From NCBI GenBank assembly GCA_025060505.1, contig JANXBU010000001.1:248001-312000 (forward strand): DNA of 64,000 nt, in the 5' to 3' direction. The stretch is from Candidatus Calescibacterium sp. GTDB taxonomy: Bacteria; Calescibacteriota; Calescibacteriia; Calescibacteriales; Calescibacteriaceae. The position numbers were made by a program, and so were the translations under genes. Shown here in pieces: positions 431 to 45,201 of this stretch; position 1 is the stretch's first letter; the number at the start of each line of letters is the position of its first letter. The notes under the pieces are model-generated. The model did not search any database, had not been told where the DNA came from, and saw only the letters and a list, made by a program, of their open reading frames with translations.

Positions 431-856
431 ATGATAAAATTCTTCTTCTCAATAATAATATTATCCCTTGCAGTTCTTATACTTTCCAGAGTTATAAATG
501 TCAAATACTCTGATGGAGGAATTTGTCTTTCTCTGAAAGATAGTATAAAAGAAAGCTTTTCTGTTGAAAATAAGAACGAAGATTATAAAAGGAAACCAAG
601 AACAATAAAAGATGAATTAGATCAACATAAAGGAAACAAATTTAATAGAGAAATTATACAAGGCGATTCTGAAGCAGAGAAAACAAAACAGAGGCCGGAA
701 AGTAAAATAGATTTAGAACCGAAAAAATCAGAAAGTTCCGAGAATGAACCGAAGAAACCAGAGAAAGAAAATTCTTCCAAAGCAGGAAAATCTGAAAAAA
801 TAAATAAACAAAATTCAGAAGATCCTATCGAGGAGATAATAAAGAAAAACTTTTGA
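431..856 (+). CDS. Small membrane-anchored Lys/Glu-rich protein, unknown function
   Basis: This is a 141-residue protein. Residues 3-20 form one hydrophobic segment (FFFSIIILSLAVLILS), which suggests an uncleaved anchor or signal peptide without a lipobox. From about residue 50 the sequence is low-complexity and almost entirely Lys, Glu, Ser, Asn and Pro, so it is probably disordered. An A/T-rich stretch (TTTTTTAAAATT) lies about ten bases before the ATG and no Shine-Dalgarno sequence is visible. The HAD-TrmI fusion gene follows after 54 bases. No family is recognised. The product probably sits at the inner membrane with its tail on one side, but its role is unknown. Confidence 0.55.
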   Translation: MIKFFFSIIILSLAVLILSRVINVKYSDGGICLSLKDSIKESFSVENKNEDYKRKPRTIKDELDQHKGNKFNREIIQGDSEAEKTKQRPESKIDLEPKKSESSENEPKKPEKENSSKAGKSEKINKQNSEDPIEEIIKKNF

Positions 857-910: not shown

Positions 911-2368
911 GTGAAAAAAGATATACAGTTTATATTCTTTGACTTTGACGGAACAATAGCAGATACAGAGGAAATACATTTCAGAGCATTCAAGAAAACT
1001 CTTGAAAAATACGGTGTAAGTATAACGTGGCAGGAATATATTGAGAAATATTTAGCATATACAGATGAAGACTTTTTCAGAGTGATCTCTAATGAAAAAA
1101 ATCTGAACTTTGATATAAAATCAATGCGTTCAGATAAGGAGGAAAACTTCCAAGAATTTATACAAAACATAAAGCTATTTCCGGGGATTGAGGAAACACT
1201 CAGATTTTTAAAGCAGAAAAATTATAAATTCTCTATAGTCTCTGGAGCTCTTAGGAAGGAGATAGAGTCTATTCTTAAAAAATACGGAATTTTGGATTTG
1301 TTTGAATTTATAGTTGCTGCTGATGACTATGATGAAGGAAAACCGTCCTCCAGACCATTTGAGATTGCTATTGAACGAGCTAAAAATATGGGATACGATC
1401 TGAGAAATGAGCTTTGTGTATCTTTTGAAGATTCCCCTTATGGTATAATTGCTGCAAAAAAAGCAGGACTTTTTTCTGTTGGAGTATCGAATTATTACCC
1501 AAAAGAGAAGCTTTTTGAAGCAGGGGCGGATATTGTTATAAATTCTTTCTTAGATCCACAAGACATTGAGGAAAAGATAAAAAACGCTCTTGAATCAAGA
1601 ATCGTTGATGGAGAAAGAGTTCTTCTCGTATCACAAAAAAGGAACAAAACCTTTCTCATAACAGCAAATAAAAAAGACAGTTTGCATACACATCTTGGTG
1701 TTGTAAAATGTGCGGATATAGTTGGAAATTATTACGGTAAAAAGGTATATTCATCAAAGGGAGAGGCTTTTTTTATTCTTCAACCAACTCTTGAAGATAA
1801 GATAAAGAAAATAGAAAGAAAGAGTGCTGTTATATACCCAAAAGATAGCTCGTTTATGATATTTATATCTGGAATATCTTCCGGTAGCAGAGTCATAGAA
1901 AGCGGATGCGGATCCGGTGGACTCACTTTATCTCTCGCTCACTTTGTAAAACCGACCGGCAGAATTTTCATTTATGAAATAAGGGATGACTTTATGGAAG
2001 TAACTCAGAAAAACCTGAAACAGTATGGACTTTTAGATTATGTTTCCTTTAAGAAAAAAGATGTGTATAAGGAGGGATTTGATGAAAAAAATGTTGATGC
2101 AGTTTTTTTGGACCTACCAGAACCCTGGCATTGCGTTAAGTTTGCCTGGGAGTCTTTGAAGCCATCTGGAGTTTTGCTATCTATCTCACCAACTGTAAAC
2201 CAAACGGAAATAATGTGTGAAGTTATGAGATCTAACGGTTTTATTTTGGTTGATACCTTTGAGATACTTCTGAGAAGATTTTTAGCAAGGGAGGGAAAAT
2301 CGCGTCCATACGAAAACATGATAGGTCATACAGCATACATATCTGTTGGAAGAAAAGTGGAAAAGTGA
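911..2368 (+). CDS. HAD-family phosphatase fused to tRNA (adenine-58-N1)-methyltransferase (TrmI-like)
   Basis: One uninterrupted 485-residue frame carries two enzymes. Residues 1-225 are a HAD subfamily IA hydrolase of the beta-phosphoglucomutase/phosphatase type: motif I DFDGTIAD, motif II with IVSGA, the motif III lysine in EGKPSSRPF, and motif IV FEDSPYGI. From about residue 230 the protein matches TrmI, which makes m1A58 in tRNA: a SAM-binding loop ESGCGSGGLTLS near residue 332 and the family signature DLPEPW near residue 400. TrmI alone is usually about 250-290 residues, so both halves look complete. The start is GTG, preceded by TTATATACTT with no Shine-Dalgarno sequence. The substrate of the HAD half is unknown. 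The gene is followed closely by recO. Confidence 0.85.
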   Translation: MKKDIQFIFFDFDGTIADTEEIHFRAFKKTLEKYGVSITWQEYIEKYLAYTDEDFFRVISNEKNLNFDIKSMRSDKEENFQEFIQNIKLFPGIEETLRFLKQKNYKFSIVSGALRKEIESILKKYGILDLFEFIVAADDYDEGKPSSRPFEIAIERAKNMGYDLRNELCVSFEDSPYGIIAAKKAGLFSVGVSNYYPKEKLFEAGADIVINSFLDPQDIEEKIKNALESRIVDGERVLLVSQKRNKTFLITANKKDSLHTHLGVVKCADIVGNYYGKKVYSSKGEAFFILQPTLEDKIKKIERKSAVIYPKDSSFMIFISGISSGSRVIESGCGSGGLTLSLAHFVKPTGRIFIYEIRDDFMEVTQKNLKQYGLLDYVSFKKKDVYKEGFDEKNVDAVFLDLPEPWHCVKFAWESLKPSGVLLSISPTVNQTEIMCEVMRSNGFILVDTFEILLRRFLAREGKSRPYENMIGHTAYISVGRKVEK

Positions 2369-44493: not shown

Positions 44494-45201
44494 ATGGAAA
44501 AGGATGCAGGAACAATTTTCTTTGATCTTGACGGAACGCTCGCGGATACATCTGAGGATATATACGAATCTCTAAATAAAACACTTGAAAAATTTCAAAT
44601 AGATCAAGTACCTTTTGATGTAGTGGTTGATTTCATAGGGGATGGCGTGAGACCTCTTATAAGAAAGATATTGGATTATCTCAAAAGAACAAACGAAGAG
44701 GAAGAGATAGTCGGAGATTTCATAAGAAATTACAGAATAGGAATATCTAAGAAAACCTATATATATCCAGAAGTGATTGATCTTATCTACTCTCTCAAGA
44801 GTCTCAGAATTAAAGTAATCTTACTCACAAACAAGATCGAAAGTCTGACTATAAAGTTACTTTCAGAACTGTGTATTCTGAATATTTTTGATGGAATTGT
44901 ATCTGGGGACACCTTCGATGTGAAAAAACCATCAGCTGGACTACTTGATAGAATAAAATCAAGGTATGAGATAAATTATCCCATTTTTGTTATTGGTGAT
45001 GGGCTCAACGATCTTCTGTTCGCAGAAAATACCGGTGCTATCTTCTTTCTTTCGAAGTGGGGATTCCCAACAAAGAAAGCTGAGGAATACATAAAACAAA
45101 ACCAAATAAAAAACAATATCTACATTACATCAGAACCGAGTGAAGTAATCCAAATAGTCAAAAATATAATTAAAAAAGATAGATCCTCATGTTTCAGATA
45201 A
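44494..45201 (+). CDS. HAD-family phosphatase (phosphoglycolate phosphatase-like)
   Basis: A 235-residue HAD subfamily IA hydrolase: motif I FFDLDGTLADTSED, motif II VILLTNK, the motif III Lys in FDVKKPSAG, and motif IV VIGDGLNDLLFAE. It resembles Gph and other small phosphatases; the substrate is not clear. The ATG at 44494 is preferred to a TTG at 44467. It is a separate gene from the HAD-TrmI fusion at 911. Confidence 0.82.
   Translation: MEKDAGTIFFDLDGTLADTSEDIYESLNKTLEKFQIDQVPFDVVVDFIGDGVRPLIRKILDYLKRTNEEEEIVGDFIRNYRIGISKKTYIYPEVIDLIYSLKSLRIKVILLTNKIESLTIKLLSELCILNIFDGIVSGDTFDVKKPSAGLLDRIKSRYEINYPIFVIGDGLNDLLFAENTGAIFFLSKWGFPTKKAEEYIKQNQIKNNIYITSEPSEVIQIVKNIIKKDRSSCFR

Follow-up and report, generated by a model that had tools for sequence, protein, structure and literature searches.

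A HAD phosphatase and a tRNA methyltransferase in one reading frame

The 64,000-nucleotide stretch of DNA analysed here (hereafter the window) carries, at positions 911-2368 of the forward strand, a single open frame that starts with GTG and runs for 485 codons. The original prediction described this frame as a complete HAD-IA phosphatase joined to a complete TrmI, a tRNA m1A58 methyltransferase, and the frame, its motifs and its Pfam matches all agree with that description. The motifs DFDGTIAD, EGKPSS, FEDSPYG, ESGCGSGG and DLPEPW were each found in the frame, and a domain search of the protein returned HAD_2 on residues 8-192 (E 1.6e-39; 136 bits, cut-off 23.8) and GCD14 on residues 288-463 (E 5.8e-39; 134.7 bits, above the curated cut-off of 26). 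No stop codon or frameshift was present near residue 228, where either would have spoken against the join. The extents of the features are given in Table 1.

Table 1. Features of the fusion locus, in window coordinates.
Feature	Position	Strand	Basis or remark
Upstream ORF, 141 aa	431..856	+	No Pfam family; positional counterpart in G002 only, 26% identical
HAD-IA phosphatase domain, N-terminal, residues 1-228	911..1594	+	Pfam HAD_2, invariant catalytic residues, fold match to TM1254/CbbY
Junction: HAD C-terminal helix 216-229, about 5 residues, TrmI strand 235-241	1556..1612	+	AlphaFold2 model
TrmI-type tRNA m1A58 methyltransferase, C-terminal, residues 229-485 and stop	1595..2368	+	Pfam GCD14; 1o54/3mb5/3lga

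An AlphaFold2 model of the fusion, built from an alignment of 29 sequences, reached a mean pLDDT of 93.2 and a pTM of 0.83. In this model the HAD C-terminal helix runs almost straight into the TrmI strand that follows the junction, with no long flexible or low-confidence linker between the two domains. We also rejected an internal start that would yield a separate TrmI, as no in-frame start at the junction was conserved between the window's genome (G000) and a relative (G002). In G000 the junction has no start codon nearby, the nearest in-frame TTG being 24 codons into the TrmI part, and in G002 the stretch scanned contained none. It is thus unlikely that TrmI is translated separately from a conserved internal start.

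Distribution of the fusion within and outside the phylum

Our sample of the phylum consisted of five draft genomes (G000-G004, G000 being that of the window) from one family and three genera. The full-length fusion was intact in 5/5 of these genomes, at 57-60% identity to the window protein. The supposition that relatives might always have two separate genes was thus not borne out: four relatives carry the join in one uninterrupted frame. An assembly artefact or a missed stop was rejected, given five uninterrupted frames in separate genomes with differing neighbours. The HAD-TrmI architecture is therefore real and conserved within the phylum. The two halves have diverged to different degrees: compared with the window protein, the HAD half is 47-49% identical and the TrmI half 66-70%. 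Between G001 and G003, the HAD half had a dN/dS (NG86) of 0.15 and the TrmI half one of 0.06, indicating that both halves are selectively kept, the HAD half less strictly. Given its lower conservation, the HAD half may serve a function that is dispensable or shifting.

Genes flanking the fusion vary among the five genomes, and the gene context is not conserved. In G000 the fusion is followed by a RecO-like gene and preceded by two small ORFs, both of which have counterparts in G002. The upstream neighbour is presumably a riboflavin-synthase-like gene in G001 and G003 and a metK-like gene in G004, as named from their sequences. The metK-like gene (L005:3098-4288) adjoins the fusion on the same strand with a gap of ~64 nt and does not occupy this place in the other four genomes; the product of metK, S-adenosylmethionine synthetase, makes TrmI's cofactor. 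Of the small ORFs, the one directly before the fusion (window 431-856 in G000, L202:1271-1684 in G002) is hydrophobic at its N-terminus and matches no Pfam family, and the one ahead of it is 62% identical between G000 and G002.

No other GCD14/TrmI-family gene was matched in the window's own genome, which is 86% complete. As the sole match of its family, the fusion is the only visible source of m1A58 in that 86%-complete genome. Reverse gyrase scored above the family cut-off in 5/5 phylum genomes and, in the same search, in 4/14 control genomes, so the hosts of the fusion are probably thermophiles. TrmI is needed for high-temperature growth of Thermus thermophilus (PMC3281791), and this need, together with the probable thermophily of the hosts, explains the constraint on the TrmI half.

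The full-length fusion was then searched for in 386 genomes, comprising the five of the phylum and the remainder outside it. Full-length matches occurred only in the five, and no fused match was found in the some 380 genomes elsewhere, where the HAD and TrmI parts matched at separate places, with identities of up to 41% and up to 45%, respectively. When a profile built from the five fusions was run against 191 genomes around G193, it likewise returned HAD-only or TrmI-only rows and none that were fused, and none of the viral and phage relatives searched was fused. Long TrmI frames in seven genomes (G079, G221, G350, G033, G351, G180 and G112) were rejected as candidate fusions: none has a HAD match in frame with TrmI, and most are GC-rich over-extensions. 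The 80 loci retained from a contig pattern scan keyed on the HAD motif are HAD-only relatives, and that scan has little bearing on the fusion. These counts bear out the view that this is not a standard fusion. The expectation that the same domain order would recur across many genomes held within the phylum (5/5) and failed outside it (0 of some 380). No published description of a HAD-TrmI fusion was found in the literature searched, in which subscription journals were thinly covered. As far as these searches reach, the combination is apparently new and lineage-specific, while the halves themselves are ordinary members of known superfamilies.

Catalytic residues and nearest relatives of the two halves

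The C-terminal 257 residues of the fusion match TrmI of Thermotoga (1o54), Pyrococcus (3mb5), Aquifex (2yvl) and Thermus (2pwy) over full length. By sequence, the TrmI half matched 1o54 with E 5.5e-56, and 3mb5 and 3lga also matched; by fold, it matched TmTrmI and PabTrmI with a TM-score by target of 0.90-0.92. The matches to 1o54 and 3mb5, in sequence and in fold, extend over the full length and take in the small N-terminal domain of TrmI; the TrmI-like_N profile scored weakly, below its cut-off, on residues 233-273 (20.8 bits, cut-off 24). NCBIfam gave no match specific for this half. The fusion has in common with these enzymes the SAM motif, DLPEPW, the Tyr before PKD and the tetramer Glu/Arg pair. 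The SAM-binding GxGSGG, Y309 and D401 (of DLPEPW) were present in 5/5 fusions, and by motif and a constant numbering offset we equated Y309/D401 with Y78/D170, the active-site Tyr and Asp mutated in PDB 5c0o and 5c1i. E451 and R455, also invariant in 5/5 fusions, align with the Thermotoga WESLFR stretch and correspond to E226/R230 of TmTrmI, the ion pair by which TrmI tetramers are held together (PMC3281791). In bacteria and archaea, the TrmI subunits known so far measure ~30 kDa and have no additional domain (PMC3281791), whereas the fusion adds a 228-residue phosphatase in front.

For the HAD half, all four HAD-IA motifs (DxDGT, Ser/Thr, Lys and (E/D)D) were present, and D11 (the nucleophile), D13 (the acid/base), S111, K144, E173 and D174 were invariant in 5/5 fusions. 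The AlphaFold2 model places a helical C1 cap at about residues 17-88 (helices 20-32, 40-47, 52-62 and 69-86), between strands 7-10 and 107-110. By sequence and fold the HAD half groups with TM1254, CbbY, beta-phosphoglucomutase and the phosphatase domain of MtlD, and the solved structures most closely related to it are those of sugar-phosphate phosphatases or mutases. Every named NCBIfam equivalog listed for it, mostly sugar-phosphate phosphatases, fell below its cut-off (TIGR02009, 99.8 vs 153; TIGR01990, 90 vs 189; PRK13222.1-2, 78 vs 225), which places the HAD half outside the beta-phosphoglucomutase and phosphoglycolate phosphatase equivalogs by these cut-offs. In the alignment, a Clostridium beta-phosphoglucomutase has an Arg where the fused HAD has Ala49. 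Pseudouridine-5'-phosphatase (9m7l) is a distant relative (E 2.1e-11). TM1254, CbbY, beta-phosphoglucomutase and pseudouridine-5'-phosphatase share the four motifs and the helical cap with the fused HAD (TM-score by target about 0.76-0.81) but, unlike it, are not joined to TrmI.

The original prediction proposed either a metabolite phosphatase linked to tRNA modification or a HAD part working on tRNA or a damaged nucleotide. The kinship with small-molecule phosphatases favours a metabolite over intact tRNA as the HAD substrate. The neighbours of unfused HAD relatives were inconsistent, and we found among them no shared gene context that would name this substrate; from their sequences we take these neighbours to be guanylate-kinase-like, RelA-like and Ogt-like genes and a molybdenum-hydroxylase-like cluster. 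A solved precedent for the arrangement is MtlD of Acinetobacter (7ocn to 7ocu), a bifunctional mannitol-1-phosphate dehydrogenase/phosphatase in which an N-terminal HAD-IA phosphatase is likewise fused to an unrelated enzyme. The activities of MtlD, however, are consecutive steps of a pathway, and no shared metabolite is known for the fusion.

Possible roles of the join

We think it fairly probable that the fusion is a bifunctional protein, a TrmI tetramer with four working small-molecule phosphatases. The C-terminal half would be the lineage's TrmI, using SAM to methylate adenine 58 of the tRNA T-loop at N1, most likely as a homotetramer. The N-terminal half would be a competent HAD-IA phosphatase whose substrate is a small phosphorylated metabolite (a phosphosugar or nucleotide), and the two active sites would work independently of each other. 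We infer both activities, the tetramer and the small-molecule substrate. With the HAD domain seated directly on the small N-terminal domain of TrmI, a tetramer would carry four phosphatases. That N-terminal domain can move against the tetramer core and may shift upon tRNA binding (PMC3281791), so an attached HAD domain could face outward. The genes would have been joined once in the lineage's ancestor, ahead of the split into three genera, and the join then kept. Its benefit, in our preferred guess, probably lies in joint production and in stabilisation on a thermostable tetramer rather than in channelling from one reaction to the other.

With the fusion, a tRNA-modifying enzyme that matters at high temperature gains a new domain architecture, one found in 5/5 genomes of one deep lineage. 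Persistent fusions are often a sign of a functional link, and retention of the join through three genera possibly indicates a closer link than the bifunctional reading assumes. The fusion thus provides a well-defined and probably thermostable protein for exploring whether m1A58 methylation and a phosphatase work together; if there is no such link, it would be an example of a fusion kept through expression or stability alone.

It is also conceivable, though we hold it somewhat unlikely, that the fusion arose by chance and brought no gain, an ancestral two-gene operon having lost its stop codon and the product having been tolerated because the TrmI N-terminus faces outward. The separate location of HAD and TrmI in all other genomes examined, the faster divergence of the HAD half and the lack of a visible wider module around the fusion are what such an origin would leave behind. 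Against it, both halves are intact and their catalytic residues invariant across three genera at a HAD identity of about 48%, the HAD half is under purifying selection, and 5/5 genomes keep the join with no re-splitting seen.

A coupling to RNA metabolism, in which the HAD domain would dephosphorylate a nucleotide from modified tRNA (such as 1-methyl-AMP from tRNA decay) or remove a tRNA-end phosphate, beside the enzyme that makes the modification, is unlikely. It would fit the retention of the join across the whole lineage and the presence among distant relatives of a HAD-IA enzyme acting on modified nucleotides (9m7l), but the fused HAD is nearer to phosphosugar enzymes than to that pseudouridine-5'-phosphatase, and its nearest unfused relatives have no RNA-related context. 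Gene neighbourhoods of trmI bear on this coupling in both directions. Outside the phylum and within the stretch fetched, a HAD-IA gene lay near TrmI in 3/55 neighbourhoods, two of which (L191 and L196) look like Actinomycetes. In a further Actinomycete sample a HAD-IA gene was present in 8/20 neighbourhoods, in each case co-directional with trmI and 463-6483 nt upstream of it, counts that are non-independent since gene order is shared by descent. Tsukamurella has the same co-directional arrangement with several genes between. The order HAD ... trmI ... arc recalls that of the fusion, but the genes are separate, usually with others intervening, and the HADs belong to a different HAD-IA subgroup. 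They are 22-28% identical to the fused HAD and are missing its SGAL and YLAxxD motifs, and are therefore probably not its orthologues. In non-Actinomycete genomes a HAD gene almost never lies near trmI. We take the Actinomycete proximity as a weak hint of an association of HAD with trmI.

Quite unlikely is the further proposal that the HAD domain clears a tRNA-turnover product, such as 1-methyl-AMP, or acts on tRNA, forming a writer/clean-up pair for m1A58. If true, one protein in a thermophilic phylum would write m1A58 and clear its toxic or blocking nucleotide. That the HAD domain is a structural or tRNA-binding extension of TrmI, no longer needed for catalysis, would accord with its attachment to a mobile domain that may move on tRNA binding (PMC3281791), but every HAD catalytic residue is invariant in 5/5 fusions and we regard this as highly improbable.

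Several HAD-type sequences lie outside the fusion. In the Actinomycete loci L217-L236, L191, L196 and L213, trmI is often preceded by a co-directional HAD-IA gene in the trmI-arc neighbourhood, arc being the proteasome ATPase. Three unfused HAD relatives (L143:1142-1798, L145:3890-4585 and L146:2032-2679) have DFNG for DFDG, with Asn replacing the second Asp of motif I, which is normally the general acid/base. Within the window itself, a separate HAD-type match that is 26% identical to the fused HAD lies at 44497-44946 on the forward strand.
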